Shown: piece by piece, positions 25,216-51,602 of the stretch
Layout: each line of letters opens with the position of its first letter
Numbering within the stretch: position 1 is the first letter of the stretch
Source of the DNA: Nevskiaceae bacterium
GTDB taxonomy: Bacteria > Pseudomonadota > Gammaproteobacteria > Nevskiales > Nevskiaceae
Assembly (NCBI GenBank): GCA_021731445.1
Contig: JAKFXK010000035.1
Span: 1 to 64,000, forward strand
Direction of reading: 5' to 3'
Length of the DNA stretch: 64,000 bases
Translations under genes and position numbers: made by a program
The notes under the pieces: generated by a model
Database searches by the model: none
Seen by the model: only the letters and a program-made list of their open reading frames with translations
Told to the model about the DNA's origin: nothing

Positions 25216-25232
25216 TTAGACAACCTGTCAAA
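25216..25232. promoter_or_regulatory. Variant TetR-type operator before the first sulfatase
   Basis: TTAGACA-ACC-TGTCAAA is a 7-bp inverted repeat with one mismatch and a three-base spacer, 20 bases upstream of the sulfatase ATG. Its right half is the reverse complement of TTTGACA, the half-site found at 37362. It has the same geometry as the four better sites in this locus but diverges at the fourth base, so assignment is tentative. Confidence 0.4.
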
Positions 25233-25251
25233 CCGGTGAGGACGCCCCGTC

Positions 25252-27057
25252 ATGCAGCTCAACAACACGCGATTCATCACCTGCTTGCAGCAGCTGGGCA
25301 CATCGCTGCTGGGTCTCTCTTTGAGTGCGCTGTTCTGCACGGCACTGGCCCAATCCCACCCCGAAGCAGCCGTGCAAAAGCCCAACTTCGTGCTGCTGCT
25401 GATCGACGACGCCGGCTTCACCGACCTCGGCAGCTACGGTGGTGAGGCACGCACACCCAACATCGACGCGCTGGCCCAGCGCGGCGCGATGTTCACCAGC
25501 TATCACAGCTCGCCGCTGTGCTCGCCCTCGCGGGCGATGCTGCTGACTGGTATCGACAACCACCGCACGGGTGTGGCGACCATCCCCGAAACCCTGCCGG
25601 CCGAGCAGCAGGGCAAGCCTGGCTACAGCCTGCATCTGGAAAGCGGCGTGCAGACGGTGGCGACCAGGCTGAAAGCCGAGGGCTACCGCAACTACATGAC
25701 CGGCAAGTGGCATCTGGGGCATGGCCCCGGCGAGCTGCCGGATGCGCATGGCTTCGACCGTTCCTTCGTACTCGATGCCTCTGGCGCCGACAACTGGGAG
25801 CAGAAGCCCTACATGCCCTATTACACCAGCGCCGATTGGTACGAGGATGGCAAGCTTTCGAAACTGCCGGACGATTTCTACTCCTCGAAGTTCATGGTCG
25901 ACCAGATGATGGCCTACCTCGAACGCGACAAGAGCCGCAGCGAGCCGTTCTTCGCCTACATCGGTTTCCAGGCCCTGCACATCCCGGTGCAGGCGCCACG
26001 CGAACTCACCGCGCACTATGCGGGTGTCTACGATGGTGGCTGGGAGGCGTTGCGGCAGGCACGCTGGCAACGCGCGCAGGAGCGCGGGCTGATCCCCCGA
26101 GATGCGCCGCTCGCGCCGGCGCATGACAAGCTGCGCAGCTGGGATTCACTCGACGCCGACGAGCGTGCGCTCTACAGCAAGAGCATGGCCGTCCACGCCG
26201 GCATGCTGGAGGCGATGGATCAGCACATTGGCCGTCTCATCGCCTACCTCAAGGAGCGCGGGCAGCTCGACAACACCATCTTCCTCATCACCTCCGACAA
26301 CGGCCCCGAGCCAAGCGACCCCATCGCACAGACCGGCTTCAGCACCTGGATGTCGCAGAACGGCTACCGCCGCGAGCTGGAGACACTGGGCGAGAAGGGC
26401 AGCATGAACTTTATCGGTGCCGAGTGGGCCAATGCCACCGCCTCACCGGGAAACCTTTTCAAGTTCCATGCCTCGGAAGGCGGCATGCGTGTGCCGCTGA
26501 TTGCGGCTGGCCCCGGCATCGTGCCGGGGGCGCGCATCGCCAGCACCAGCTTCGTCACCGATGTGACGCCGACCATCTATGACTATGCGGGCATCGAGCC
26601 GGAGCGCTGGAGCGGCCCGGTCGCCATCACCGGCAAAAGCCTCAAGCCCACACTCGCGGGGGCTGCCACGCATACCTATGATTCCGAGACGCCGGTGGGC
26701 ATGGAGGTCGGCGGCAATGCGGCGCTGTTCAAGGGCGACTACAAGCTGACCAGGAACACCCTGCCCTGGGGCGATGCGAAGTGGCGGCTCTACAACCTGG
26801 CCAGCGATCCCGGCGAAACCAAAGACCTGGGCGCTGACGATGCCGCGCGCTACCAGGCCATGCTCGCCGACTACGCCCGCTACGAGCAGGAGATGGGTGT
26901 GCTGAAACTGCCGGACGACTTCAACCCGCACCAACAGGTGAGGATCAATGCCATCAAGAAACAGCTGCATCACTTCCGCTACCGGATTGCGATGGGTGTG
27001 TTGCTGATGGTGCTGATTGCGGTTTGGCTGGTGCGTCGTCGCAAGACGCGCGCTTGA
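25252..27057 (+). CDS. Arylsulfatase-family sulfatase, membrane-anchored at its C-terminus
   Basis: A 601-residue sulfatase with an N-terminal signal peptide (cleavage near ALA/Q at about 33). D52-D53 (LLIDDAG) bind the metal. LCSPSRAMLLTG carries the C90 that is converted to formylglycine, and GKWHLGHG (K152, H154) and TSDNGPE complete the active site. A C-terminal hydrophobic helix (YRIAMGVLLMVLIAVWLV) followed by RRRKTRA anchors it in the inner membrane, facing the periplasm. It hydrolyses sulfate esters. The maturation enzyme is encoded at 37441 and a second sulfatase at 38325. GGTGAGG precedes the ATG. Confidence 0.92.
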   Translation: MQLNNTRFITCLQQLGTSLLGLSLSALFCTALAQSHPEAAVQKPNFVLLLIDDAGFTDLGSYGGEARTPNIDALAQRGAMFTSYHSSPLCSPSRAMLLTGIDNHRTGVATIPETLPAEQQGKPGYSLHLESGVQTVATRLKAEGYRNYMTGKWHLGHGPGELPDAHGFDRSFVLDASGADNWEQKPYMPYYTSADWYEDGKLSKLPDDFYSSKFMVDQMMAYLERDKSRSEPFFAYIGFQALHIPVQAPRELTAHYAGVYDGGWEALRQARWQRAQERGLIPRDAPLAPAHDKLRSWDSLDADERALYSKSMAVHAGMLEAMDQHIGRLIAYLKERGQLDNTIFLITSDNGPEPSDPIAQTGFSTWMSQNGYRRELETLGEKGSMNFIGAEWANATASPGNLFKFHASEGGMRVPLIAAGPGIVPGARIASTSFVTDVTPTIYDYAGIEPERWSGPVAITGKSLKPTLAGAATHTYDSETPVGMEVGGNAALFKGDYKLTRNTLPWGDAKWRLYNLASDPGETKDLGADDAARYQAMLADYARYEQEMGVLKLPDDFNPHQQVRINAIKKQLHHFRYRIAMGVLLMVLIAVWLVRRRKTRA

Positions 27058-27075
27058 GCGGGCATCACCGAATCA

Positions 27076-27171
27076 GTCATTCCCGCGAAGGCGGGAATCC
27101 AGGCTCCCGTTTCTGTTGCTGACTTGCCTTGCGCTTCGTGCCAACTGGATTCCCGCCTTCGCGGGAATGAC
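27076..27171. repeat. Inverted-repeat element with perfect 27-bp arms (REP/MITE-like)
   Basis: The arms at 27076-27102 and 27145-27171 are exact reverse complements (start GTCATTCCCGCGAAGGC, end with its complement ...GCGGGAATGAC), and each arm itself contains the palindrome TTCCCGCGAAGGCGGGAA. The 42-base centre is unrelated. TCATTCCCGCGAAGGCGGGAATC repeats are widely scattered in beta- and gammaproteobacterial genomes. Lying between convergent genes it may also act as a transcription terminator for both. Confidence 0.85.
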
Positions 27172-27180
27172 CGCGTCTAC

Positions 27181-27876
27181 TTATCGACTCGTCGCTTTCG
27201 ACTTTGCAGTGCTGGATTTCTTGTTGACGGCTGCTTTCTGCTTTGAGGCGACCGGCACATCCTCCACGCCACTCACCTGCGGCTGCATCAGCTTCATCAG
27301 CATCCAGGTAAACAGCTCGTTGCCGCTCTTGCGGCTGATCTCGCCATCGTGGACGAGCTGGTGCGTGCCCCAGAAAGCCATGTGCAGCATCCACGCCAGT
27401 GCCCGGGCCTGGGCTTCGCTGAGCGCGAACTGCCGCATCACCACGGGCGTCCACAGCTTGGTCAGCAGGTGCCGCAGGCGCATCCCCATGCGGCTGGTCT
27501 CGGCGTTGTCGGAGTAGGTGGCGGTGATCATCTGCCAGAGCGCGCGCACCCGCGCCGGGTTCTCGGCAAAGGTCTCCTGCTCGACGATGCGCATCAGGCC
27601 CGCCAGGTCGTTGCCGTTGTCGCCGATGCTGCTGCGGATGTTTTCGTAGCGGCTGCGGAACAGGTGCGACATGGTGTCGGCCATCAGCTCGTCGACCGAG
27701 GCGAAGTGCTGGTAGACCAGCTGGCGGCTGACCTTGGCCGTCTCAGCCACCGAGATCATGCTCAGTGCCGGCCAGCCCTGCGTCTCCACCACGGTCGCGG
27801 CCACGTCCAGCAGCGCCAGCCTGCGGTCGTCGCGGGCGAGATAGGCGCGTTTCTCGGTCGGCTTCTTGCGGGTCAT
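27181..27876 (-). CDS. TetR-family transcriptional regulator
   Basis: A 231-residue repressor. The N-terminal HTH is clear (ALLDVAATVVETQGW, then SMISVAETAKVSRQLVYQHFASVDELMADTM), followed by an all-helical ligand domain and a lysine/serine-rich tail (KQKAAVNKKSSTAKSKATSR). ATG 27876 gives MTRKKPTEKRAYLARDDRR. It lies 37 bases after the stop of the tandem DsbA-fold gene and is probably in its operon. It is the only regulator in the 25-44 kb block, so it is the best candidate to bind the repeated TTkACA-N3-TGTAAA palindromes there (inference). Confidence 0.88.
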   Translation of the reverse strand: MTRKKPTEKRAYLARDDRRLALLDVAATVVETQGWPALSMISVAETAKVSRQLVYQHFASVDELMADTMSHLFRSRYENIRSSIGDNGNDLAGLMRIVEQETFAENPARVRALWQMITATYSDNAETSRMGMRLRHLLTKLWTPVVMRQFALSEAQARALAWMLHMAFWGTHQLVHDGEISRKSGNELFTWMLMKLMQPQVSGVEDVPVASKQKAAVNKKSSTAKSKATSR

Positions 27877-27913
27877 GGCGGCATCTTGGTGGGATATCCA
27901 CGCGCTGTAAACA

Positions 27914-29233
27914 TCACTGTGCAATCAGTCGGCGCATGATTTCCTCCTCGATCAACCAGATTCGATCCTGCCCCCAGACGGTGAATGCAGGTTCGCCATC
28001 GCCCGCCACCAGCCGCAGGGTCGGCACGCCCCAGGAGCCAGCGGCAATCATGTCCTGCACATTGGCTTCCATCTCGGCTTCCCAATCCTTGCTGTCGAGA
28101 TGCTCCAGCGCTTTTGCCCAGTCCAGCCCCGCGCGTTCGACGATGCCGCGCAAGCCCGACAGCGCTTGCGCATTGACCCCTTCACTCCACACCGCCTGGC
28201 TGTAGACGTGAAGGTATTCGAAGCCGCAGCCCTGCTCCCGCGCCCAGGGAAACAGCGAGTAGGCGCGCAAGATCGGCTTGCCGAACGGATCCCAGATGTT
28301 GCCGAAAGCGATGCTCAGCGTCTCGGCCTCGCGTTGTGTGTCCTGCAGGATGTACATGCCCTTGCGCCGGTCGGCCTTCACGCCACGCATCATCATTGGC
28401 AGCACGGGGCGCAGTACCAGGTCAATCGGGTAGCGCTGACAGAGCGCGGCCACGCGCGCATATGAGAGATGCGTGTAAGGGCTGCGCAGCGAGGGGAAGA
28501 ACTCCAGCGTCAGGCGGCGGCTGGCAATGGATGCGGCGGGTCTCGTCTGACGCCGCATGACGCTGGGGCTGATCAGCGCGCCGGCGCGCCGCGCACCCAG
28601 CGCATCCAGCCTTTGCTCCAGGTAATGCAGGCGGTCGATGCCCCAGTACCACTCGCCTTCGTAATGGAACATGCCACCGAGGTAATGGCCGAGCCGGTGG
28701 CGCAGGTCGAAGTGTTTCTGCAGGTGCTCTGCGGCCACGGCCTCGCTCGGCAGTACGCGGCCCAGGCCTAAGGCTTCGAGCGCGGTGGACGAACCCTGGT
28801 GCAGTGCCGTGTTCACGCGCATTGCCTGCTGTGCGAAGTCGCGCGGCTCGTCGCATGCAAGCAGCACGCGGCGAGCGAGAATCAAGTCTGCCGACGCGGC
28901 CGGCGCATCGAAGCTGAGGCCGTAAAACGGCGCTATCGCCGCGCACTCGCGTGTTGCCCATTGATCCCACAAGGCCTGCTCGTGGATGGCGATCGGTGTG
29001 GGCCGGGCCACGACCTTTGGCACCAGCTGGATGTCGTAGCGGTCGAGCAGGGGGGCTATGGCCTGTACCGCCAGCTGGCTGTAAGGGTCGTCCACCTGAT
29101 GGAAATACAGCACGGTGTGTGCGCGGCCTTGTCGTTGCCGCGCCGCTTCGGCGCGCAGGCGCTGCTGGGTGCGGCGTGCCGGGTCGGCAAGGCGCCGCAT
29201 TACGGCGCTGCGGATGGTGCGGATCAGGTCCAT
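27914..29233 (-). CDS. Tandem DsbA-fold protein (2-hydroxychromene-2-carboxylate isomerase-like)
   Basis: A 439-residue protein made of two thioredoxin/DsbA-like halves. The first begins VLYFHQVDDPYSQLA and the second LEFFPSLRSPYTHLSY; both lack a CxxC at the usual place, so neither is a disulfide oxidase. The second half ends with the cis-proline region GSWGVPTLRLV. This pattern is of the HCCA-isomerase/GST-kappa type, which uses glutathione as cofactor. There is no signal peptide, so it is probably cytoplasmic. It is the first gene of an operon with tetR; the operator at 29282 lies 49 bases upstream of its start. Confidence 0.8.
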   Translation of the reverse strand: MDLIRTIRSAVMRRLADPARRTQQRLRAEAARQRQGRAHTVLYFHQVDDPYSQLAVQAIAPLLDRYDIQLVPKVVARPTPIAIHEQALWDQWATRECAAIAPFYGLSFDAPAASADLILARRVLLACDEPRDFAQQAMRVNTALHQGSSTALEALGLGRVLPSEAVAAEHLQKHFDLRHRLGHYLGGMFHYEGEWYWGIDRLHYLEQRLDALGARRAGALISPSVMRRQTRPAASIASRRLTLEFFPSLRSPYTHLSYARVAALCQRYPIDLVLRPVLPMMMRGVKADRRKGMYILQDTQREAETLSIAFGNIWDPFGKPILRAYSLFPWAREQGCGFEYLHVYSQAVWSEGVNAQALSGLRGIVERAGLDWAKALEHLDSKDWEAEMEANVQDMIAAGSWGVPTLRLVAGDGEPAFTVWGQDRIWLIEEEIMRRLIAQ

Positions 29234-29281
29234 GCGGTTTTCCTCGAAAGCGCAACTTCAGGCGGTGATGCGGCAATTCTA

Positions 29282-29296
29282 TTTACAACGTGTAAA
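29282..29296. promoter_or_regulatory. TetR-type operator, site 1 (TTTACA-ACG-TGTAAA)
   Basis: A perfect 6-bp inverted repeat with a three-base spacer, in the divergent promoter region between the DsbA-fold/tetR operon (minus) and the MBL-fold gene (plus). The same palindrome recurs at 36003, 37363 and 40017. If tetR binds here it would control itself and the MBL gene. Confidence 0.7.
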
Positions 29297-29357
29297 ATTT
29301 GTTGCAGGGCAGGAACCTACCCGGTAACGCGCCTGCCATGTATCGAGGAGAGACGCC

Positions 29358-30434
29358 ATGTGGAAAAAGATCGGCATTGGACTCATTGCGCTCATCACCA
29401 TCGCTGTCTTACTCAACCGCACCGTGGGCGACAGGCTGATGCTGAAGATGATGCAGAAGCAGGTGGTGGCGAACCTTTCCGGTGCCAGTTTCGCGGAGTT
29501 TGGCGATGGCCTCAACATCGTGCTCTGCGGTGCAGGCTCGCCCTTTCCTGATGTGAAACGCGCCGGTCCCTGCGTTGCGGTGATCGCCGGCCAGCAAATC
29601 CTGATCATCGACGCCGGCTCCGGCTCCGCACGCAACCTCGCACCCTCCGGCATCCCGGCCGGCAAGATCGCGGCGGTGCTGCTCACCCACTATCACTCCG
29701 ATCACATCGACGGCCTCGGCGAGCTGCTGCTGCAACGCTGGGGCAATGCCGCGCACACCACGCCGACGCCGGTGATCGGGCCCACCGGTGTGGAGCAGGT
29801 CGTGGCAGGCTTCAACCTGGCCTACACGCAGGACTTCAGCTATCGCGTCGCCCATCACGGGCCGAAGATCATCCCGCCCGGTGGCGCAGGCGGCGTTGCA
29901 CAGCCCTTTGACCTGCCCGCGCCCGGCGTCGGCAGCGTGGTCTACGACGTGGAGGGCCTCAAGGTCACCGCCTTCGCAGTCGACCACCGCCCCATCGTCC
30001 CCGCCGTCGGCTATCGCATCGACTACCAGGGCCGCAGCGCCGTGATCTCCGGCGACACCGTGAAGTCCACCAACTTGGCGCAGTTCGCCAAGGGGGTAGA
30101 CCTGCTGGTGCACGAGGCGCTCTCGCCCGAGCTGGTGGGCCTCATTGCCGGGGGCGCAAAGCAGGCGGGGGCCGCCAACATCGAGCAGATCAGCCACGAC
30201 ATCATCAACTACCACACGACGCCGGTGGAGGCTGCGGAAATCGCCCAGGCAGCGGGTGCCAGGCACCTGCTGTTCTACCACCTCGTCCCGGTGCTGCCGC
30301 TCAAGCGGCTGGAACCGATTTTTCTGCGCGGGGTGAGCAAGGCCTACGACGGCGAGGTGACGGTGGGGCAGGATCAGAGCTGGATCAGCATGCCCGCCAA
30401 CAGCCGCGAGGTGAAAGTGGGCCGCCGTGGCTAG
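29358..30434 (+). CDS. MBL-fold metallo-hydrolase (RNase Z/arylsulfatase-like), membrane-anchored
   Basis: A 358-residue protein with an N-terminal hydrophobic anchor (IGIGLIALITIAVLL). The dizinc site is THYHSDHIDG (H111, H113, D115, H116), with ISGDTVKS and HEALS supplying further ligands and FYHLVP near the end. This is the RNase Z-like subgroup that includes some arylsulfatases; with a membrane anchor a tRNA-processing role is unlikely. It would act in the periplasm on a small ester or sulfate ester. Its stop TAG lies in the CTAG at the left end of the MITE-like element. Confidence 0.85.
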   Translation: MWKKIGIGLIALITIAVLLNRTVGDRLMLKMMQKQVVANLSGASFAEFGDGLNIVLCGAGSPFPDVKRAGPCVAVIAGQQILIIDAGSGSARNLAPSGIPAGKIAAVLLTHYHSDHIDGLGELLLQRWGNAAHTTPTPVIGPTGVEQVVAGFNLAYTQDFSYRVAHHGPKIIPPGGAGGVAQPFDLPAPGVGSVVYDVEGLKVTAFAVDHRPIVPAVGYRIDYQGRSAVISGDTVKSTNLAQFAKGVDLLVHEALSPELVGLIAGGAKQAGAANIEQISHDIINYHTTPVEAAEIAQAAGARHLLFYHLVPVLPLKRLEPIFLRGVSKAYDGEVTVGQDQSWISMPANSREVKVGRRG

Positions 30435-30691
30435 GGTGTGTTGACACATGAATGGTCGCTGCGTTGCAGGTCAAAATCGCGTCAGGCTAGGCGCAGGCCG
30501 ACGCGAAGGCTGTACGCCTTCGCTGGGCTTATAACGACGCATGGCCAGCAACCCTCCGGGGCGGGACTGTTTTGGGGCATTGCTACGTCAGCAAGTGCTT
30601 CAATACCGACGTATTGCGCGCACTTGCTTCCTTGCACTGCCCCAAAACAGCCTTCCGCCGCAGCGATCATTCATATGTCAACACACCCTAG
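30431..30691. mobile_element. MITE-like element with 33-bp terminal inverted repeats
   Basis: The ends CTAGGGTGTGTTGACA... (30431-30463) and ...TGTCAACACACCCTAG (30659-30691) are inverted copies with two mismatches over 33 bases. Inside are a GCGAAGGC/GCCTTCGC hairpin and a second inverted pair, CTGTTTTGGGGCA / TGCCCCAAAACAG. It has no coding sequence of its own. CTAG stands at both borders and may include a target duplication. The left border holds the stop codon of the MBL gene and the right end carries the ATG used by the GST gene. Confidence 0.75.
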
Positions 30692-31859
30692 GCCCCCGAA
30701 AGACTGGTTCATCTGGGGTTCCGAGCTTTCGCCCTACGCGCTCAAGCTTGCACTCTGCTGCCGCTATTCCAATCTGCCGCACCGCTTTCTGCCGGATCAA
30801 GGCAGTTGGGCCGAGAACTGGCGCTGCGTGCTGCGGCTGGAAAAACTCAAGCGCCGCCGGCTGCCGCTCACCTGGCCGGTGATGAGCGAAGACGATGAAC
30901 TGCCACTGGTGCCGTACCTGTTCGGGCCGGAGGGCGAGAACCTCTACGACTCCAGCGCCATCGCCGAGTGGCTGGATCACAGCTTGCCGGGGGAACACAC
31001 GCTCATCCCTGCTGATCCACTCGCCGGTTTCGTCGCGCGCCTCATCGACGACTACGCCGACGAGTTCCTGCTCTACGCCGTGCATCATCAACGCTGGAAA
31101 GTCTCCGCTCACGACAACGATGCCGGTCAGCGTCTCGCCCGCGAATACCGCTTCCAGCTCGGCCCCCTGCAGCCATTGATGGTGCGCTGGTTCAGCGCAA
31201 GGCAGACGCGGCGCCTGCCTTATCTCTTCAGCGTCGCACCAACAGGCTTCCACATCGCAGGCCTGCCGCGGCGTCGCCAGCCACTGGCGCGCGAGGGTTT
31301 TCCGCCCACTCATGCGCTGCTCGAAGAGGCCTTCGCACGGCTGACGGCGCTGCTCGACGTGCTGCTGGGTGGGCGCAGCTATCTGCTCGGTGAGCGGTTC
31401 ACCCTCGCCGACGCCGCGCTCTATGGACAGCTCGGCATGAACCTCGCCGACCCGAGCACCGCGCGCGACCTGCGCGAGCGCACGCCTCAGCTGTATCGCT
31501 GGCTGAATGTGCTGCACCGCGGCACGCCATTGCGCGTCGATGCACCGCTGTGCATCGACTCTGCCCTCAAGCCCCTGCTGGCCGAGATCAGCCGCACCCA
31601 CCTGCCGCTGATGCAGCAGAACGCCGCAGCGCACCAGCGCTTCAAACAGCAAGGCCAGCGACGCTTCAATGAGCGCGCCTTCAATGCCGGTGAAGCGCTC
31701 TACGACGGTGTGCTCGATGGCCAGCCGTATCGCAGCGTTGCCAGGAGTTTTCAGGCGCGCAGCTGGCGCGATTGCCAGGTGCGCTGGGCGGCATTGACCG
31801 TGCCCGTGCGTGCAGAACTTGCGGCCCTGCTGCCGGCCGCGCACACATTCAGCACCTGA
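30675..31859 (+). CDS. Glutathione S-transferase family protein, long form
   Basis: A 394-residue protein. The N-terminal thioredoxin-like GST domain starts WFIWGSELSPYALKL and carries the VPYLF and EGENLYDSSAIAEWLDH glutathione-binding region. The all-helical C-terminal domain has SYLLGERFTLADAALYGQL, the GST N-capping box. About 120 extra residues follow, ending AALLPAAHTFST. The ATG at 30675 belongs to the right end of the MITE-like element, so the element supplies the start codon. Substrate unknown; the context suggests glutathione-dependent processing of a hydrophobic compound. Confidence 0.83.
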   Translation: MSTHPRPPKDWFIWGSELSPYALKLALCCRYSNLPHRFLPDQGSWAENWRCVLRLEKLKRRRLPLTWPVMSEDDELPLVPYLFGPEGENLYDSSAIAEWLDHSLPGEHTLIPADPLAGFVARLIDDYADEFLLYAVHHQRWKVSAHDNDAGQRLAREYRFQLGPLQPLMVRWFSARQTRRLPYLFSVAPTGFHIAGLPRRRQPLAREGFPPTHALLEEAFARLTALLDVLLGGRSYLLGERFTLADAALYGQLGMNLADPSTARDLRERTPQLYRWLNVLHRGTPLRVDAPLCIDSALKPLLAEISRTHLPLMQQNAAAHQRFKQQGQRRFNERAFNAGEALYDGVLDGQPYRSVARSFQARSWRDCQVRWAALTVPVRAELAALLPAAHTFST

Positions 31860-31873
31860 GCAGGATTTAAGCC

Positions 31874-31892
31874 GCATCACGCCGGGTGATGC
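31874..31892 (+). terminator. Small hairpin after the GST gene
   Basis: GCATCAC and GTGATGC pair across a five-base loop, 15 bases past the GST stop, without a T-run. It may be a weak or Rho-assisted terminator. I see no operator palindrome in the rest of the 31860-32000 gap. Confidence 0.3.
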
Positions 31893-32000
31893 CAATCCCT
31901 GCCACAGCCATCTTTACCACTTCGCGTCCGCACCACGCCTGACATACATTGCCCGTGCCGCCGTGAGCGCGGTGCAAATGTTCTTGAGGCAGGAGCCGTC

Positions 32001-34214
32001 ATGCGCTGGATCGCACATCAAGCTTGGGTTGCAACACTGCTCGTCACGGCGGCACTGGTCGGCTGCGGCAATTCATCCGGGCCGGGTGGAACCACCCCCA
32101 TCGGCAGCAACCCCGACAGCGTGAACAACACGCCACCGGTGTCGAAGTTCGATCTCGCCAACCGCTGCTTCGTGCTGAAGACCAATGGCAAGTACGTGGT
32201 GCGCGATGCAACGGGTTTCATCGCCAATGGCAGCAGTGCTAATGGCGCCGAGGCGTTCTACATGAAGCCTGCAGGCCTGGGCCGCTATCTGTTCTACACC
32301 AAGGGCCGGGCGCTGATGACCGGCGCTGGCACCGCCGTGACGGCACAGGCCACGCCTGCCGACGGTGCCGACATCACGCTCAGTGGCGACAACGGCCTCT
32401 ACACCGCCAAGTCACTCGGCATGGCGCTGGCGGTCGATGGCACGGGGCGTCTGCTGCTGGGCAGCACCGCAGCACCTTTGGTGTTCGAGCCGGCGACGGG
32501 ATGCAGCGTGTATCCCGAAATGCCTGTGGGCATCGCGGCGGCGACATTCAAGAACGCACTCGGCAAGCCGGTGATCGGCTTTGCCGAAGTGCATTCACAC
32601 ATGGGCATGGGTAGCGAGATGTCCGACGGCAGTGGCGATGTCGGCCCCTCGGCGGGCGGCGTGCTGTACGGGCAGGCGATCAACCGCTTCGGCGTGCTGG
32701 CCGCACTGGAGAGCTGCGAAGTGATGCATGGCCCCGACGGCACGCTCAGCGCCGAGAACATCATCCTCGACCAGAACCCCACCGAAACGCATGACGTGGT
32801 GGGCTGGCCGAGTTTCATCGACTGGCCGAAAAACGATTCCTTCCTGCACCAGCAGATGTATTACAAGTGGATCGAGCGCGCCTGGAAAGCGGGCCTGCGC
32901 ACCATGACCATCCACGGCACCACCATCGAGGCCTTGTGCAACATCGCAGCGGCCAGCTATGGCGACAAGATGGCCGAGTGCGTGGACATGGAGGTGGGCG
33001 TCCAGCAGGTGCAGTACATGTATGACGTGCAGAACTACGTCGATGCGCAGGAAGGCGGGCCGGGCAAGGGCTGGTTTCGCATCGTCAAGGACCCCGCCGA
33101 AGCACGTGCAGTGATTGCCGAAGGCAAGCTGGCGGTGATCCTGGGGCTTGAGTTCTCCAACATCTTCCACTGCCGCGTGCAGTTTCTGCCCGGCGGCAGA
33201 GAGACCAGCGACTGCGACGAGGCCGAGATCGACAGCGAGATCGACCGCGCCTGGAACCTGGGTGTGCGGCAGATCTTCCCCTATCACGATGTGGATTCAG
33301 CACTCGGTGGCACCGGCATCTTCAGCTCGGTACTGAACTACGTGGGCTACAGCGACATCCATGGCTTCTGGAAAACCTATGCCTGCCCGGATGTGGAGTA
33401 CTTCACCGGCGAGGGCGTGTTCGTCGCAGGTGCAGAGCTTGAAACCGCGCCGTTCATGCTGGGCAGTGATCCGCTCAGCCAGGCCATCATCGCCAATGGC
33501 GGCGGTACCTTGCCGGTGTATCCGCCGGGTCGTCAGTGCAATGCGCGCGGCGTGACGCCGCTGGGCAAGTACGCGATCGACAAGATCCTGAAGAAGGGCT
33601 TCATCCTCGACATCGACCACGCCGAACTGTCGATCAAGCAGTACATGCTCGACGAGGGCGCGAAGCTGACACCCAACTACCCGGCGGTGTCGGGCCACGG
33701 CGGCCACGGCGGCATCAGCACGGCGCAGGCCGAGCAGATGTTCCGGCAGGGCGGCATCATTTATCCGGCGCTACCCAACGGCAAGGACTTTGCGCGCTAC
33801 ATCAGCCAGATCAAGCCGGTGTGGGCGCGTTCGACCAGCCGCCCGCTGGCAGTGGGCTATGGCGCGGATTCAAACGGACTGCGCACCCTGCCGGGATCAC
33901 GCGGCGCAGGCTCAACGGCAATCCAATATCCCTTCACCCTGTTCCAGGGTGCGGGCTGGGGGCCGCAGTACGCGGCGGCGGGCATCGCGCCGCTGAAGGT
34001 CGACATGCTGTCGATCCCCGGCGGCAAGAGCTGGAATATGGATGAGGAAGGCATGTCCCACTACGGCCTGATGGCAGACATCGTCGAGGAAATCCGCATC
34101 GAAGGCGGCGAGGAGGCGACCACGGCGCTCTACAACTCCGCCGAAACCTTCCTGCAGCTTTGGGAGCAGACGCTCAGGGCCTCTGCCGATGCGAGAACCA
34201 AGCCGGTGCCGTAA
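32001..34214 (+). CDS. Large lipoprotein with a TIM-barrel amidohydrolase/dipeptidase-like domain
   Basis: A 737-residue lipoprotein: the lipobox is LVGC with C22. Residues about 50-170 look like a beta-trefoil/fascin-type carbohydrate-like domain (DLANRCFVLKTNGKYVVRDATG, GLYTAKSLGMALAV). The catalytic part starts at VIGFAEVHSHMGMG (H198, H200), and continues with GLRTMTIHGTT, QIFPYHDVDSALGG, FILDIDHAEL and NYPAVSGHGGHGGIS. This is a metal-dependent TIM-barrel pattern related to peptidase M19 or amidohydrolases. Substrate unknown. It overlaps the following membrane-protein gene by 26 bases, so the two are coupled. Confidence 0.78.
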   Translation: MRWIAHQAWVATLLVTAALVGCGNSSGPGGTTPIGSNPDSVNNTPPVSKFDLANRCFVLKTNGKYVVRDATGFIANGSSANGAEAFYMKPAGLGRYLFYTKGRALMTGAGTAVTAQATPADGADITLSGDNGLYTAKSLGMALAVDGTGRLLLGSTAAPLVFEPATGCSVYPEMPVGIAAATFKNALGKPVIGFAEVHSHMGMGSEMSDGSGDVGPSAGGVLYGQAINRFGVLAALESCEVMHGPDGTLSAENIILDQNPTETHDVVGWPSFIDWPKNDSFLHQQMYYKWIERAWKAGLRTMTIHGTTIEALCNIAAASYGDKMAECVDMEVGVQQVQYMYDVQNYVDAQEGGPGKGWFRIVKDPAEARAVIAEGKLAVILGLEFSNIFHCRVQFLPGGRETSDCDEAEIDSEIDRAWNLGVRQIFPYHDVDSALGGTGIFSSVLNYVGYSDIHGFWKTYACPDVEYFTGEGVFVAGAELETAPFMLGSDPLSQAIIANGGGTLPVYPPGRQCNARGVTPLGKYAIDKILKKGFILDIDHAELSIKQYMLDEGAKLTPNYPAVSGHGGHGGISTAQAEQMFRQGGIIYPALPNGKDFARYISQIKPVWARSTSRPLAVGYGADSNGLRTLPGSRGAGSTAIQYPFTLFQGAGWGPQYAAAGIAPLKVDMLSIPGGKSWNMDEEGMSHYGLMADIVEEIRIEGGEEATTALYNSAETFLQLWEQTLRASADARTKPVP

Positions 34215-35688
34215 CCGGATATCTGCCTTGCGGACTGCTGGCCTGCGCAGCTTCTCTGTACTGCTCGCGTTGAGTGCGCCGCTCGGCGCGGGTGCGCATG
34301 GCTTTGGCCGGCTCTACAACCTGCCGGTACCGTTCTGGCTCTACGGCTGGGGCGCGGCTGCGGCACTGCTGCTGTCCTTCCTGCTCGTGGCGCTGTTCAC
34401 GGCTTCACCAGGGGCTACAGGGCAGGCTCCGGTGCGCGACATCAGCGAGGCCAGCTGCGTGCGAGCGCTGCGTCGCGCGCTACCGGCACTCAAGGCGCTG
34501 AGTGTGTTCCTGCTGCTGCTCTGTATCGCCACGGCGCTGCTCGGCAACCGCGACCCCTACCGCAACTTCAGCATGACCTTTTTCTGGGTCGTGTTTCTGC
34601 TCGGCTTCACCTATCTCACGGCGCTGCTTGGCAATCTCTATGCCGCGCTCAACCCCTGGCGTGTGATGACGGCTGTACTCGGCCGCCACGGGCAAGGCCG
34701 CCTGCCTTACCCCGCATGGCTGGGAGACTGGCCTGCGCTCGCGCTGTATCTGGGCTTCATCTGGTTCGAGCTATTCGGCCTCGGCAGGCCGGTGCCGCTC
34801 GGCCAGATGCTGCTCGCCTATACCGCGCTCAATGTCGTGGGTGTCTGGCTTCTTGGCCGTCGCAGCTGGTTTACACACTGTGAGTTCTTCTCGGTGTTCC
34901 TGCGGCTGGTGGCACTGCACTCGCCGTTCGCCTATCAACGCGACGCCGCTGGCGGGCGCGGCACTCTGCAGCTGCGCAAGCCTTTTGCTGGACTGCTGCA
35001 GGAGCGCCCCGTGCACCTCAGCACCGTCGTGTTTGCACTCGCCATGCTCTCCACCACCGCCTTCGACGGCCTGCGCGCCACGCAGTGGTGGGTGCGCCTG
35101 TTCTGGAGCGACCCGACCGGCCTCGTCACCTTCCTCGCCGGTACCCGCCCCATGCTCGCTGTGGCCAGCCTGCGCAGCTGGTACATCGCCTGGGAGACGA
35201 TCTGCCTCATCGCCTCGCCGTTCCTGTATCTCGGTGCTTATCTGGTCTGCATCGCACTGGCGAAGCGGCTCACGCGCAGCACGCGGCCGTTGCGTGAATT
35301 CGCCCTCGACTTCGGCCACAGCCTGCTACCCATCGCGCTGGTCTATCACGTCACCCATTACGCGACGCTGCTGCTCACACAGGGCCTGAAGATCGTCAGC
35401 CTCGCCTCCGATCCCTTCGGTTGGGGTTGGGACCTGTTCGGCACCGCCATGCTGTGGCGCGCGCCGATCCTGCCCGGCATGGGGCTGGTGTGGCACACGC
35501 AGGTGGGGCTAATCTTGTTCGGCCACATCGTCAGCGTCACCATCGCGCATCGCGTTGCGCTGCGGGTGCTCCCGACGCGCCGCGCGGCGCTGCTGAGTCA
35601 GCTGCCGATGCTTGCTTTCATGGTGCTGCTGACCGTCGCGGGTCTGTGGATCATCGCGCAACCGCTGACGACCGAGTTGATGCGTTAG
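34189..35688 (+). CDS. Polytopic membrane protein, function unknown
   Basis: A 499-residue protein with about 10-12 hydrophobic helices (for example AAALLLSFLLVALF, FFWVVFLLGFTYLTALLGNLYAA, MLLAYTALNVVGVWLL, PILPGMGLVWHTQVGLILFGHIVSVTIAHRVAL). It resembles proteins annotated as hypothetical fenitrothion hydrolase in other bacteria, an annotation I would not trust as function. Conserved-looking histidines (ALVYHVTHYATLL, LVWHTQ, GHIVSVTIAHR) could bind metal or heme. It is coupled to the TIM-barrel lipoprotein by a 26-base overlap and converges with a small membrane protein (four-base overlap of the 3' ends). Confidence 0.75.
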   Translation: MREPSRCRNRISALRTAGLRSFSVLLALSAPLGAGAHGFGRLYNLPVPFWLYGWGAAAALLLSFLLVALFTASPGATGQAPVRDISEASCVRALRRALPALKALSVFLLLLCIATALLGNRDPYRNFSMTFFWVVFLLGFTYLTALLGNLYAALNPWRVMTAVLGRHGQGRLPYPAWLGDWPALALYLGFIWFELFGLGRPVPLGQMLLAYTALNVVGVWLLGRRSWFTHCEFFSVFLRLVALHSPFAYQRDAAGGRGTLQLRKPFAGLLQERPVHLSTVVFALAMLSTTAFDGLRATQWWVRLFWSDPTGLVTFLAGTRPMLAVASLRSWYIAWETICLIASPFLYLGAYLVCIALAKRLTRSTRPLREFALDFGHSLLPIALVYHVTHYATLLLTQGLKIVSLASDPFGWGWDLFGTAMLWRAPILPGMGLVWHTQVGLILFGHIVSVTIAHRVALRVLPTRRAALLSQLPMLAFMVLLTVAGLWIIAQPLTTELMR

Positions 35689-35957
35689 CGCACCGCGAAA
35701 ATGCCGCGCCTGGCCGGCACCCACCAGATCAGGCCGAACAAAAGCGTGCCGAGAATCACCCGCAAGGGATTGGCACCGCGACCCTTGAGCAGCAGAAAAG
35801 CCACCGGGATTTCGAGCACATGCAGACCCAGGATGATGGTGGCGACCAGCACCGAGCGGTGGCCGCTGTCGCCCGTGGCTACGTGCAGCGCCGCCCAGGT
35901 GTAGAAGGCGATGAGACCCACCATGCTGGCGATCCAGAAGGCTTTGCTGTTGGTCAT
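35685..35957 (-). CDS. Small membrane protein with three predicted helices
   Basis: A 90-residue protein: MTNSKAFWIASMVGLIAFYTWAALH, then VLVATIILGLHVLEIPVAFLLL and LRVILGTLLFGLIWWVPARRG. I do not recognise a defined family beyond small DUF1145-like membrane proteins. ATG 35957 has GGGAG five bases upstream; a GTG six bases earlier is an alternative. The operator palindrome at 36003 is 46 bases upstream of its start, so it is probably part of the same regulon. Confidence 0.7.
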   Translation of the reverse strand: MTNSKAFWIASMVGLIAFYTWAALHVATGDSGHRSVLVATIILGLHVLEIPVAFLLLKGRGANPLRVILGTLLFGLIWWVPARRGIFAVR

Positions 35958-36002
35958 GCGCACTCCCGAGCGGTGGCGGCGCAGCGGTGCGCCTGCAAAT
36001 AC

Positions 36003-36017
36003 TTTACATCATGTAAA
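36003..36017. promoter_or_regulatory. TetR-type operator, site 2 (TTTACA-TCA-TGTAAA)
   Basis: A perfect 6-bp inverted repeat with a three-base spacer. It lies between the small membrane protein gene (minus) and the short reading frame at 36061 (plus), matching sites at 29282, 37363 and 40017. Confidence 0.7.
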
Positions 36018-36060
36018 TCAATCCAGACAAAAGCGCATCGACATTCCCGGAGAAGAACCC

Positions 36061-36120
36061 ATGATCGAGCGCTGCGCTCACGCCCAACCGCCACAAGGCT
36101 TCGATCCGCAGGCCTGGTAG
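36061..36120 (+). pseudogene. 19-codon orphan gene start, probably a truncated gene
   Basis: ATG 36061 follows a good RBS (CGGAGAAGAACCC) that closely resembles the one before the FGE gene (CGGAGGAGAACCC), and an operator palindrome lies 44 bases further upstream. The frame MIERCAHAQPPQGFDPQAW then meets TAG. This looks like an intact promoter, operator, RBS and N-terminus of a regulon gene whose body has been deleted. A genuine short peptide is possible but less likely. Confidence 0.45.
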
Positions 36121-36122
36121 AG

Positions 36123-36740
36123 CTACAGCGGCTGGCAGCGTTGCCGCGCCTGAAAATCCGCCTGCAGCTGTGGCAGTTCTGCCTCGTTGGGGATCAGCGA
36201 GCGGAACAGGATCAGGCCGCGTGTGCTGGGTGACAGCAGCACGCGTGCACCAGCGGGCGCAGCCTGCCTGGCATCGCGCGTCAGCAGCAGATCAAGATGC
36301 TTGCGGCCCTCGGCATCCACCATTGCATCGCGGTCGTTGATGGCGAAGAAGTTGCTACTGTCGGCAGCGAAGCCGGAGACCGACACATAGCCTTGCTGTA
36401 CGGGTGCGGTGATGTGCAATGCGCCCTTGGAGAGATCGAACACGCAGGCGGTATAGAGCAGGTCTGGGCTGGGCCGTACCACAGTGCGCGCGCTGGCATC
36501 GACGCGCGGTGCAGGCAGCGCGACGTTGATGCCCTTGCGCGCGATGATCTCGGCCTTGCGGCGCTGCGCTTCTGGCCGTGTATCGGGCACCGATGCCCCC
36601 TCGACACCCTTGGCCGCGATGCGGTGCATCACCAAGTGGCTGATGGCTGTCGGCAGCGCCAGCACGGTCAGCAGGTTGAACACGGGCACCAGCACGAGAA
36701 ACAGCAGCAGAGCTTTCGTCAGACTCAGGTTCGTCGTCAT
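36123..36740 (-). CDS. DUF1254 domain protein (half of a split DUF1254/DUF1214 pair)
   Basis: A 205-residue protein with an N-terminal membrane anchor (LTKALLLFLVLVPVFNLLTVLALP), then VVRPSPDLLYTACVFDLSKGALHITAPVQQGYVSVSGFAADSSNFFAIND, the DUF1254 pattern. In most bacteria DUF1254 is joined to DUF1214 in one polypeptide; here DUF1214 is the preceding gene, with which it overlaps by four bases. ATG 36740 was taken as start, since further upstream the frame runs antisense to the DUF1214 gene's codons. The molecular role of the family is unknown; the anchor suggests a periplasmic location. Confidence 0.8.
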   Translation of the reverse strand: MTTNLSLTKALLLFLVLVPVFNLLTVLALPTAISHLVMHRIAAKGVEGASVPDTRPEAQRRKAEIIARKGINVALPAPRVDASARTVVRPSPDLLYTACVFDLSKGALHITAPVQQGYVSVSGFAADSSNFFAINDRDAMVDAEGRKHLDLLLTRDARQAAPAGARVLLSPSTRGLILFRSLIPNEAELPQLQADFQARQRCQPL

Positions 36741-37333
36741 GGGCAGCCTTCGCGCACGATGGTGGGCAGCGGCAGCGTCGCCAGCTGGGCGAGCACCTCC
36801 GGTGCCGGGTTGTAGACGCGCAGGGTCAGTGAATAAGGGCCTTTTGCGGGCGTGGGCAGACTGCCCTCTGCCATGGCCTGCGGGGCGAGTGAGATATCGA
36901 AGCGGCCATCCGGCGAAGGCGGCAGATTGCCGGCGTGGCGCGCATAAAGACCTGCAGGATTCGGCACCAGATAATGGTCGGCACCATAGGCGGTGAGGCT
37001 CCACCAGCGCGCGGGTGGCGGCACGCCGCTGACGCGGTAGCGGCACTCGCCGCGCAGCACCTCGCCGCTGCTGTCGGTGAAGGCGGTGTAGTAGACCGCC
37101 TCCTGCGGCGTCAGCGCATAAAGTCCGGCGAGTGCGACGGCGGCGCGCTCCCAGGGATTGGCGGCACTGCTGCCCGTGGTCGCACTGGTGCGCCAGGGGC
37201 CATTATGGGTGGCGTGCCGGTCAATGAGATAGCGCAGCAAGGGCTTGGTGGTGAGCGCCCCCGTCAGCGCGGCGGCAAGGATCACGCCCGTCCACGCCAG
37301 CATCCTGCGCAGCGGCGACGTTTGGGTAGTCAT
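36737..37333 (-). CDS. DUF1214 domain protein (other half of the split pair)
   Basis: A 198-residue protein with an N-terminal membrane anchor (MLAWTGVILAAALTGALTTKPLL). The DUF1214 region reads AVYYTAFTDSSGEVLRGECRYRVSG, RWWSLTAYGADHYLVPNPAGLYA and SLTLRVYNPAPEVLAQLATLPLP. It is the first gene of the two-gene operon with DUF1254 and diverges from the FGE gene. The operator palindrome at 37363 is 30 bases upstream of its start, so both directions are likely controlled together. Confidence 0.8.
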   Translation of the reverse strand: MTTQTSPLRRMLAWTGVILAAALTGALTTKPLLRYLIDRHATHNGPWRTSATTGSSAANPWERAAVALAGLYALTPQEAVYYTAFTDSSGEVLRGECRYRVSGVPPPARWWSLTAYGADHYLVPNPAGLYARHAGNLPPSPDGRFDISLAPQAMAEGSLPTPAKGPYSLTLRVYNPAPEVLAQLATLPLPTIVREGCP

Positions 37334-37362
37334 GGGCGTCACTCCTGCGCGATGGATATTAT

Positions 37363-37377
37363 TTGACATCGTGTAAA
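37363..37377. promoter_or_regulatory. TetR-type operator, site 3 (TTGACA-TCG-TGTAAA)
   Basis: The palindrome with one mismatch (TTGACA against TTTACA) lies between the divergent DUF1214 and FGE genes. Its left half coincides with the -35 box of the FGE promoter described next, so a bound repressor would block RNA polymerase. Confidence 0.7.
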
Positions 37378-37392
37378 TATCACTCCGATAAT
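37363..37392 (+). promoter_or_regulatory. Sigma-70 promoter for the FGE/sulfatase operon
   Basis: A consensus -35 TTGACA (37363-37368) and a -10 GATAAT (37387-37392) with 18-base spacing, 48 bases before the GTG start. It overlaps operator site 3. Confidence 0.6.
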
Positions 37393-37440
37393 CAATCCAC
37401 AAGCTCTACCACAAATTACAGAGCACACGGAGGAGAACCC

Positions 37441-38328
37441 GTGGCTACGTCGCCTCTGACGACTCTGATTGCGCTGTTGTTGCTGGCTGGCCTCAGGCCA
37501 TGCAGCGCGGGGGTGACTGCCAAGCCGGAGATGGTGCGCGTGCCTGCGGGCGAGGCGCACATCGGCAGCGACAAGGGACGTGCCGACGAAGCGCCGCCCT
37601 TCAAGACTGCGCTCGCAGCCTTCGATCTCGACCGCACGCCGGTGACGGTGGCGGCGTTCGCGCACTTTGCCAGGCAGAACGGCTTCGTCACCGAAGCCGA
37701 GAAGCTGGGCGGCGGTGCGGTGATGACTTTCGGCACCGGCCAGTGGAAGCTCGTGCCCGGTGCGATCTGGCGCCAGCCGCTGGGGCCGAAGGCCGAAGCC
37801 GCTGCGCCGACGCATCCCGTCACGCAGGTCTCGTGGAACGATGCCAGCGCCTACTGCGCCGCGCAGGGCAAGCGCCTGCCGAGCGAGGTGGAATACGAAT
37901 ACGCCTCGCGCCTGGGTGCGCCGGACGGTAGCGCCCATGCCTTCGGTGACGCGCTGGTAAAGGACGGCCGCTACCGCGCCAATGTCTGGACTGGTGTGTT
38001 CCCCATGCTCAACACCGCCAAGGACGGCTATCGCACCACCTCACCGGTCGGTGCGTTTGGCGAAGACCCACTGGGCTTCACCGATCTTGCGGGCAACGTG
38101 TGGGAGTGGACCAGCGACTGGTACCGCCCCTACTCCGAGCGCGAGCAGCCCTGGCCACCGGGCAAGCCCGGTGAAAAGGTGCAGCGCGGCGGCTCCTTCC
38201 TCTGCGATCCCAGCTTCTGCTACGGCTTCAAGGTCACGGCACGCGGGCATTCCGCGCCGGACTCCTCCCACATGCATGTCGGCTTTCGCTGCGCGCGCAG
38301 CCTCGCCGACACACGGAAATCCGCATGA
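37441..38328 (+). CDS. Formylglycine-generating enzyme (sulfatase-maturating, FGE type)
   Basis: A 295-residue protein with an N-terminal signal-like hydrophobic segment (LTTLIALLLLAGLRPCSA). The FGE fold pattern is complete: EMVRVPAGEAHIGSD, HPVTQVSWNDASAYCAAQGKRLPSE, FTDLAGNVWEWTSDWY and RGGSFLCDPSFCYGFKVTARG. C255 and C260 match the two copper-binding active-site cysteines of aerobic FGE (C336/C341 in human). It oxidises the CxPSR cysteine of sulfatases to formylglycine. The start is GTG 37441 behind GGAGGAG. It is coupled by ATGA to the second sulfatase gene. Confidence 0.92.
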   Translation: MATSPLTTLIALLLLAGLRPCSAGVTAKPEMVRVPAGEAHIGSDKGRADEAPPFKTALAAFDLDRTPVTVAAFAHFARQNGFVTEAEKLGGGAVMTFGTGQWKLVPGAIWRQPLGPKAEAAAPTHPVTQVSWNDASAYCAAQGKRLPSEVEYEYASRLGAPDGSAHAFGDALVKDGRYRANVWTGVFPMLNTAKDGYRTTSPVGAFGEDPLGFTDLAGNVWEWTSDWYRPYSEREQPWPPGKPGEKVQRGGSFLCDPSFCYGFKVTARGHSAPDSSHMHVGFRCARSLADTRKSA

Positions 38329-39965
38329 AAAAACGCCTGCTGATCCCACTGCTCGTTGTCATCGGTGCAGCTGCGCTGTATGCGCTGCGCCTGCCGATCC
38401 TGCTGCATGCCACGGGCTGGATTTCCGATTTCAAGAATCCCCGCGCACCCAACCGTGTCGTGCCGTGGCAGCAGGGGCCGACAACAGCGAGTGCCGGCGC
38501 GCGACCGCCGAACGTGATCGTGATTCTCATCGACGACATGGGCATCAACGATGTGTCGAGCTATGGGGCCGGCATGCCGCAAGTGCCAACGCCGAACATC
38601 GACCGTCTCGCCGCCGAAGGTGTGCGCTTTGATCGCGGCTACTCGGCCAACGCCGTGTGCTCACCCTCGCGCGCCTCGCTGATGACGGGCCGCTATGCCA
38701 CTCGCTTCGGCTTCGAGTTCACGCCCACGCCCGGCAACATGGCGAAAGTCGCGCCACTGCTCTCGTCGCCGGATCGCCTGCGCCCGGTGATCGTCCACCG
38801 CGATCGCGCGGCCGATATCGCGCCTTTCAACCAGCTGGGTATGCCGACTTCCGAAGTCACCATTGCCGAAGTGCTGAAAACGAAGGGCTATCACACGGCA
38901 CACATCGGCAAGTGGCACCTGGGTGGCACGCCGGAGTTCCGCCCCAACAACCAGGGCTTTGACGAAACCCTGTTCATGGAGAACGGCCTGCACCTGCCGG
39001 AGGGCAGTCCCGATGTCGAAAACGCCAAGCAGGATTTCGACCCCATTGATCGCTTCCTCTGGCCCAACATGCGCTATGCCGCCAGCTACAACGGCAGTGA
39101 CTGGTTCGAGCCACGCGGCTATCTCGCCGACTACTACACCGACGAGGCGATCAAGGTCATCGAGGCCAACCGCAACCGGCCGTTTTTCCTGTATCTGGCG
39201 CACTGGGGCATCCACACTCCCTTGCAGGCGCTGAAGAGCGATTACGAAGCCCTGCCCGCGACGATGAGCCACCGCGAGCGCGTGTACGGTGCGATGGTGC
39301 TGTCCATCGACCGCAGTGTCGGGCGCATCCTGCAGGCACTGAAGGCGCAGGGGCTGGATGAGAACACGCTGGTGGTGTTCACCAGCGATAACGGCGCGCC
39401 CGGATACATCGGCCTGCCGGATGTCAACAAGCCCTATCGCGGCTTCAAGCTCACGCTGTTCGAGGGTGGTGTGCGCGTGCCCTATCTCGCGCGCTGGCCG
39501 GGCCAGCTGCCAGCAGGGTTGCAGTATCCCTATCCGGTATCGAGTCTTGACCTCATGCCCACCATCGCCGCCGCAGCGGGGGCTGCGCCGCCGGCGGATC
39601 GCGTCATTGACGGCGTCAACCTGTTGCCGCATCTCACTGGCAGAGAGGCCGCTGCACCGCACGATGTGCTTTTCTGGCGCGATGGCAGCTACGAGATGGT
39701 GATGGCGAAAGGCTGGAAGCTGCAACAGTCACAACGGCCTGCCAAAACCTGGCTGTTCCATCTCGACGAAGATCCCACCGAGCAGCGCAATCTGGCCGAT
39801 GGCAATCCCGGCAAGGTGGCGGAGCTGAAAGCCCTGCTCACCGCCCACAACGGCGGGATGAAGCCCGCGCTCTGGCCGTCCTTCGTCGAGTTCCCGGTGA
39901 TGGTGGACAAGACGCTCGACCAGCCCGAAGAGCCTGACGACGAGTATGTGTACTGGCAGAACTGA
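38325..39965 (+). CDS. Sulfatase, N-terminally membrane-anchored
   Basis: A 546-residue sulfatase. An N-terminal helix (LLIPLLVVIGAAALYALRLPILL) anchors it or exports it. Metal ligands D70-D71 (ILIDDMG), the formylglycine site NAVCSPSRASLMTGRY (C112), GKWHLGG (K196, H198) and FTSDNGAP are all present, so the enzyme should be active after maturation by the FGE encoded just upstream (four-base overlap). It differs from the first sulfatase in having its anchor at the N-terminus. Substrate unknown; arylsulfatase-A type. Confidence 0.93.
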   Translation: MKKRLLIPLLVVIGAAALYALRLPILLHATGWISDFKNPRAPNRVVPWQQGPTTASAGARPPNVIVILIDDMGINDVSSYGAGMPQVPTPNIDRLAAEGVRFDRGYSANAVCSPSRASLMTGRYATRFGFEFTPTPGNMAKVAPLLSSPDRLRPVIVHRDRAADIAPFNQLGMPTSEVTIAEVLKTKGYHTAHIGKWHLGGTPEFRPNNQGFDETLFMENGLHLPEGSPDVENAKQDFDPIDRFLWPNMRYAASYNGSDWFEPRGYLADYYTDEAIKVIEANRNRPFFLYLAHWGIHTPLQALKSDYEALPATMSHRERVYGAMVLSIDRSVGRILQALKAQGLDENTLVVFTSDNGAPGYIGLPDVNKPYRGFKLTLFEGGVRVPYLARWPGQLPAGLQYPYPVSSLDLMPTIAAAAGAAPPADRVIDGVNLLPHLTGREAAAPHDVLFWRDGSYEMVMAKGWKLQQSQRPAKTWLFHLDEDPTEQRNLADGNPGKVAELKALLTAHNGGMKPALWPSFVEFPVMVDKTLDQPEEPDDEYVYWQN

Positions 39966-40016
39966 CAGCCCCCCCGGCACGTCGGCGTGTCGTGGTGTTC
40001 CAGCGCGATCAAAAAC

Positions 40017-40031
40017 TTGACATCATGTAAA
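40017..40031. promoter_or_regulatory. TetR-type operator, site 4 (TTGACA-TCA-TGTAAA), overlapping a promoter
   Basis: Same palindrome as at 29282, 36003 and 37363, about 190 bases upstream of the DUF1302 gene. TTGACA can serve as a -35 box, with TAGGGT (40039-40044) as a poor -10 at 16 bases spacing. The remaining gap up to 40217 shows no other feature I can support. Confidence 0.65.
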
Positions 40032-42365: not shown

Positions 42366-42382
42366 TGCACCGAGGATCCGCC

Positions 42383-51580: not shown

Positions 51581-51602
51581 AGTGACAATACACATTGTCA
51601 CT
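51581..51602. promoter_or_regulatory. Palindromic operator between tetR and the monooxygenase gene
   Basis: AGTGACAAT-ACAC-ATTGTCACT is a perfect 9-bp inverted repeat with a four-base spacer. It lies 34 bases from the tetR start and 15 bases before the monooxygenase ATG. A related single half-site TTGACA occurs at 51555. Typical TetR operator geometry. Confidence 0.75.

Follow-up and report, generated by a model that had tools for sequence, protein, structure and literature searches.

The window analyzed here comprises 64,000 nucleotides of contig JAKFXK010000035.1, from a freshwater Nevskiaceae bacterium (assembly GCA_021731445.1). A block of genes near its middle, encoding sulfatases, glutathione-related enzymes and proteins of several DUF families, is punctuated by a short palindrome, TTKACA-N3-TGTMAA, and contains a gene for a TetR-family regulator that we propose as the repressor acting at this palindrome. 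Four perfect sites occur within 11 kb, starting at 29282, 36003, 37363 and 40017. A first-pass annotation, made from the letters alone, had placed the palindrome at the same four positions, and all four proved to be perfect sites.

At the left of the block lies an AtsA-like sulfatase gene (sulfatase 1, 25252-27057, plus strand), whose product carries a CSPSR motif and resembles the Pseudomonas aeruginosa arylsulfatase (PDB 1hdh). Between this gene and a divergent one, 20 bp ahead of the sulfatase ATG, is a variant of the palindrome, TAGACAACCTGTCAA (reverse complement TTGACAGGTTGTCTA), which occupies 25217-25231 and thus starts at 25217, not at 25216 as first annotated. The regulator gene, tetR (27181-27876, minus strand; Pfam TetR_N), is the second gene of an operon whose first gene (27914-29233, minus strand) encodes a tandem DSBA-fold protein. 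This protein had been labeled as DsbA-fold, and we considered and rejected a role as a DsbA disulfide oxidoreductase: it has no CxxC, it bears an SPYTHL motif, and its nearest solved structure is a 2-hydroxychromene-2-carboxylate (HCCA) isomerase, so that it is of the HCCA-isomerase/GST-kappa type rather than a thiol oxidase. An inverted repeat of the TTCCCGCGAAGGCGGGAATCCAG type fills the gap between sulfatase 1 and tetR (27060-27180) and is likely a small intergenic repeat element.

Operator 1 (TTTACAACGTGTAAA, 29282-29296) separates the tetR operon from a divergent, plus-strand operon encoding a metallo-beta-lactamase-fold (MBL) hydrolase, RNase Z/arylsulfatase-like and belonging to a regulon family found in 15 genomes (29358-30434), followed by a glutathione S-transferase (GST)-like protein, GSTc (30675-31859). 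A matching site is present in the relative G001, a metagenome-assembled genome of Stagnimonas sp. The GST gene is followed, at 31859, by a terminator-like stem-loop, a kind of match no commoner here than in shuffled sequence. We do not count the next two genes, at 32001 and 34189, as regulon members, since nothing corresponding to them was found between the matching genes of G001. Operator 2 (TTTACATCATGTAAA, 36003-36017) is upstream only of a gene for a small membrane protein of no family (35685-35957, minus strand; orthologues in G001, G037 and G072). The DUF1254 gene (36123-36740, minus strand) ends, rather than starts, at this site, so that 36003 serves the small membrane protein alone.

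DUF1254 and its neighbor DUF1214 (36737-37333, minus strand) are separated by operator 3 (TTGACATCGTGTAAA, 37363-37377) from two plus-strand genes, encoding a formylglycine-generating enzyme (FGE; 37441-38328), the sole strong FGE match in the assembly, and sulfatase 2 (38325-39965), whose closest solved relative is an exo-4S-kappa-carrageenan S1 sulfatase. Sulfatase 2 shares the CSPSR motif with sulfatase 1, and the FGE has the paired cysteines FLCDPSFC; together with the Pfam matches, these are the features of type I (formylglycine) sulfatases and their activating enzyme. Operator 4 (TTGACATCATGTAAA, 40017-40031; matching site in G001) lies between two co-directional genes, sulfatase 2 and DUF1302, upstream of the plus-strand pair DUF1302 (40218-42365), an outer-membrane barrel of a sulfatase-cluster clade, and DUF1329 (42380-43741), its LolA-like periplasmic partner, both assigned from Pfam and trees. 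Of the perfect sites, only 29282 (DsbA-fold/MBL) and 37363 (DUF1214/FGE) therefore stand between divergent starts, not three as first noted, although the 25217 variant does so as well.

Occurrence of the palindrome

A genome-wide pattern search of the 2.86-Mb assembly found the symmetric form TTKACANNNTGTMAA five times without mismatch, while a reversed control pattern gave 0 matches across the whole assembly. Four of the five are those of the window, and the fifth (C29:11338, on contig 29) stands directly ahead of a GSTa-GSTb operon, beyond the reach of the first-pass annotation, which was confined to the window. The concern that the palindrome might be common elsewhere in the genome, raised in the first-pass annotation as the outcome that would speak against a regulon, is thus not borne out. 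A one-mismatch operator, TTGCCATCGTGTAAA, lies just 3′ of the same GSTa-GSTb operon (L008, 13281-13295) and scores 12.1 bits. When up to two mismatches were allowed, the window yielded 14 strand matches, compared with 1.56 (standard deviation 1.72) in shuffled sequences, none of the 100 shuffles reaching the observed number.

With a matrix trained solely on the sites of relatives, the four window sites score 26-30 bits. The next-best match in the window is the 25217 variant (14.4 bits, E ~0.04 for the window), and everything else in the window is at noise level, including a match at 34870 that lies within coding sequence and was rejected as an operator. The TGTCTA form of the variant also precedes the orthologous sulfatase in G043, and in both G043 and G049 an MBL-GSTb-FGE-sulfatase 2 operon diverges from sulfatase 1 across a one-mismatch site of the TGTCTA/TGTCCA type. 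This recurrence of a like-type site ahead of sulfatase 1 supports the 25217 variant as a real, if imperfect, operator, in line with the variant that had been noted before the first sulfatase.

Co-occurrence with the TetR regulator

The product of tetR matches the TetR_N helix-turn-helix with 32.2 bits, above the curated cut-off of 24, and its recognition helix, SRQL(V/I)YxHF, is near-invariant among orthologues. Its predicted structure is all-helical, from a model built on two sequences whose mean pLDDT of just 42.9 makes it too poor for use, and none of the NCBIfam TetR equivalogs reaches its cut-off on this protein. An orthologue is present in 17 of the 85 genomes of the order and, in a 369-genome sample of the class, is confined to members of this order. 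The 17 TetR-positive genomes contain 47 perfect sites (mean 2.8), compared with 16 in the 68 TetR-negative ones (mean 0.24), and at least two sites are found in 12/17 and 0/68 genomes, respectively (Fisher 5e-11; Mann-Whitney 8e-10). The contrast persists inside genus g11 (p = 0.005), so shared ancestry alone does not account for the co-occurrence of regulator and motif.

In the TetR-positive genomes, 44 of the 47 sites adjoin one recurring set of genes, namely the divergent DUF1302|DUF1329 pair, the GST operon|DsbA-fold gene pair, the MBL gene, and a PPIase-HupE-DUF3604-short-chain dehydrogenase/reductase (SDR) operon. Two of the other three sites fall within rRNA spacers and one is in an unrelated context (G002, C54); the site TTTACAGGATGTAAA, common to G011 and G022, maps to the 16S-23S rRNA spacer, and we discounted it as a chance match. 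TetR is the only regulator among the families conserved across these clusters. In addition, G037 has a site 54 bp ahead of tetR, G043 has a one-mismatch site immediately ahead of it, and in both G000 and G001 the operon that includes tetR follows a site.

Several observations weigh against a simple pairing of this TetR with the palindrome and with sulfate esters. No obvious site accompanies tetR itself in G002-G004 or in genus g8, indicating that autoregulation is not universal; G039 and G043 have the regulator yet one-mismatch sites only; and G010 and G016 carry regulon-type sites with no TetR detected, G010 being a 79% complete bin. The co-occurrence is moreover in part linkage, since regulator and sites share gene clusters, and related genomes are not independent. 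Finally, sulfatases are absent from most TetR-positive regulons (13/17).

One TTGACA-N3-TGTCAA site each is also found in G006, G033, G062, G065, G066, G067 and G073 (genus g3), which have no TetR, and may be the operator of a different regulator; since they probably belong to another factor, we did not assign sites of this form in TetR-less genomes (most of them in genus g3) to the regulon.

Given that the genome has 13 TetR_N matches, the palindrome might instead be bound by another regulator, either a second TetR of the window (50872-51546, minus strand), only ~11 kb from site 4, or one of 11 other TetR-type proteins. The second TetR gene is, however, divergent from a Baeyer-Villiger-type monooxygenase-like gene (51618, plus strand), and between the two is a separate palindrome with an N4 spacer, GTGACAAT-ACAC-ATTGTCAC (51582-51601), likely the operator of that second TetR. 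Its relatives, present in 65/85 genomes, do not follow the distribution of the motif and are lacking in the site-bearing G001, G005 and G077, for which reasons we rejected it; nor does any further regulator family recur in the clusters. Binding by another regulator is accordingly a highly improbable account, and the co-occurrence across 85 genomes, the same gene families at the sites and the half-sites in −35 position (see below) strongly support the prediction of the first-pass annotation that one TetR governs one regulon. The monooxygenase gene also has beside it an SDR gene (53139-53957) that clusters by sequence with the regulon SDRs and is without the motif.

Promoter overlap and proposed mode of action

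The left half of operator 3 doubles as the −35 box of a good sigma-70 promoter, TTGACA-N18-GATAAT (11/12 match), as the first-pass annotation had pointed out for this site, and G001 has the same arrangement. Using the sites of related genomes, whose counts are not fully independent, we found 10 TATAAT-like hexamers (at least 5/6) at a spacer of exactly 18 from the TTKACA half-site, compared with 0.04 expected from the flanks. A −10 element in register (16-18 bp; at least 4/6) follows 12/22 TTGACA half-sites compared with 7/62 TTTACA half-sites, suggesting that operators double as a −35 box where their third base is changed from T to G. Promoter occlusion by a repressor is the natural reading of this geometry, in which a half-site is often a −35 box followed by a −10 at exactly 18 bp, and repression fits it well.

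Some TetR-family proteins activate transcription, and the sites could likewise be bound by an activator, or by this TetR acting as one. Most TTTACA half-sites, for which no clear −10 lies at 16-18 bp, would be compatible with such a mode, while the many promoters in which operator and −35 box overlap at spacer 18, that at 37363 among them, and the in-register −10 of over half of the TTGACA half-sites fit occlusion instead. We regard activation as quite improbable, and infer that TetR binds the palindrome and represses.

Based on these results, we propose that TetR (27181-27876) is a local repressor that would bind TTKACA-N3-TGTMAA as a dimer and block RNA polymerase, because a half-site overlaps or neighbors the −35 box, until freed from the DNA by an inducer (the likely candidates being the hydrophobic substrate and a product of its breakdown). 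Its predicted targets are the DsbA-fold(HCCA-isomerase-like)-tetR operon itself, MBL-GSTc, the small membrane protein, DUF1214-DUF1254, FGE-sulfatase 2, DUF1302-DUF1329 and the GSTa-GSTb operon of contig 29, as well as sulfatase 1 via the variant site. In this scheme, DUF1302/DUF1329 would take up a hydrophobic compound, the FGE-activated sulfatases would remove a sulfate ester, and processing would then be glutathione-dependent, through the GSTs and the HCCA-isomerase-like protein, with contributions from the MBL hydrolase and perhaps from the SDR encoded upstream of GSTa. Taken as a whole, this explanation is, in our judgment, a probable one.

The proposed regulon resembles TetR-family local repressor regulons in its TetR_N helix-turn-helix, its short dimer-type palindrome, the operator over the −35 box, and the position of tetR in or beside the target cluster; it differs from the known ones in the three-base spacer with TTKACA arms and in having no NCBIfam TetR equivalog at cut-off. 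Literature searches on TetR with TGTAAA, GST and operator, and on this gene combination, found no paper. On the sequence evidence, a new local regulon of the TetR type is well supported, and its exchange of modules is informative; the regulon would bring DUF1302, DUF1329, DUF1254, DUF1214, DUF3604, unusual GSTs and tandem HCCA-isomerase-like proteins into one testable unit with a defined operator, in which the inducer of TetR should point to the substrate.

Content of the proposed regulon, likely substrate and module exchange

Across relatives, the core families adjoining the sites are GSTa, two or three GSTb, the tandem HCCA-isomerase-like DsbA-fold protein, the MBL hydrolase, SDR, and DUF1302/DUF1329, the divergent pair of the latter often bearing two operators 16 bp apart. 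A core so dominated by GSTs could point to detoxification or a stress response, with the GSTs and MBL hydrolase as effectors, rather than to catabolism. TetR proteins often control defense against toxic compounds, and no complete carbon-degradation pathway is under the motif. The FGE and two sulfatases, on the other hand, suggest nutrient use, as does G072, in which a similar gene set lies beside an alkyl-sulfatase-type MBL protein and an FA_desaturase-rubredoxin protein. Moreover, DUF1302/DUF1329 proteins are tied to growth: they are needed for Tween 20 metabolism in Pseudomonas putida (PMC10866462), and a DUF1329 protein is needed for growth of Castellaniella on monoterpenes (PMC6394551). 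Detoxification is thus possible but rather unlikely. Because of this literature and of the presence of FGE-dependent sulfatases, GSTs and the HCCA-isomerase-like protein, the substrate in the window lineage is most likely a hydrophobic sulfate ester, which would be desulfated and then handled with glutathione.

DUF1302 and DUF1329 are neighbors, as outer-membrane barrel and LolA-like partner, also in P. putida PP_0765/0766 and Castellaniella AmeA/AmeB. Unlike in those systems, no RND transporter was recognized among the recurrent regulon families, and here the pair, with sulfatase or GST genes next to it, carries a TetR-type operator. The combination of GSTs with an SDR is reminiscent of isoprene and styrene-oxide GST pathways, and GSTb is weakly similar to IsoI and StyI; however, it scores 37.3 bits against an NCBIfam IsoI equivalog cut-off of 300, and is therefore not a member, and no monooxygenase operon is under the motif in this genome.

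The sulfatase genes are not part of the regulon everywhere. FGE and sulfatase 2 stand beside sites solely in G000, G001, G077 and G043 (4/17 TetR-positive genomes) and in TetR-less G049. The assignment to sulfate-ester metabolism in the first-pass annotation is partly supported, these genes being absent from the regulons of the other 13 TetR-positive genomes; as a label it plausibly fits the window lineage rather than the regulon as a whole. In site-bearing lineages, FGE and sulfatases look like genuine regulon members: G043 and G049 have sulfatases, FGE, GSTb and MBL in one motif-bearing cluster, G077 has a GSTb-FGE-sulfatase operon, and G001 has a perfect site ahead of a fatty-acid-hydroxylase-like gene and sulfatase 1.

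In trees, the window DUF1302 groups with the sulfatase-cluster copy of TetR-less G072 (support 100/99), apart from the same-genus G002-G004, whose DUF1302 groups with the core regulon. The window DUF1329 is not in the core-regulon clade either, its closest neighbors being the copies of G072 and G015. As both trees place the window copies outside the core regulon, a sulfatase-type DUF1302/1329 pair has replaced the core-type pair in the window lineage, where it carries the operator. The regulon is thus seen changing cargo, with sulfatase-cluster DUF1302/1329 and FGE/sulfatase genes under the operator under which close relatives have a different version. The G072 cluster combines GSTb, SDR, the small membrane protein, a single-domain HCCA-isomerase-like protein, DUF1214, DUF1254, sulfatases, DUF1302, DUF1329 and FGE with the two genes mentioned above and AraC regulators, and lacks the motif; sulfatases are therefore linked to this enzyme set independently of TetR. 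With its two sulfatases near AraC regulators, this cluster (L128, 588-18734) looks like one for alkyl-sulfate utilization.

DUF3604-type genes, with HupE/UreJ and PPIase genes, are in the regulon clusters of 13/17 TetR-positive genomes and the sulfatase module is in those of the other 4, no cluster having been seen with both full modules. A strict either/or of DUF3604 and sulfatases per genome was rejected, as G077 does carry DUF3604 genes at other loci, and G043 carries an unrelated type. The FGE/sulfatase and DUF3604-HupE-PPIase modules might be interchangeable inputs to one TetR-controlled glutathione pathway, DUF3604 then being a sulfatase-analogous hydrolase, for example one releasing sulfate or another ester group, although we hold this idea to be doubtful. 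Beside an operator in G077 is also a single frame of 1301 aa (L103, 4397-8302) in which a TonB-dependent receptor is continuous with a DSBA-fold domain, either a fusion or the product of a lost stop.

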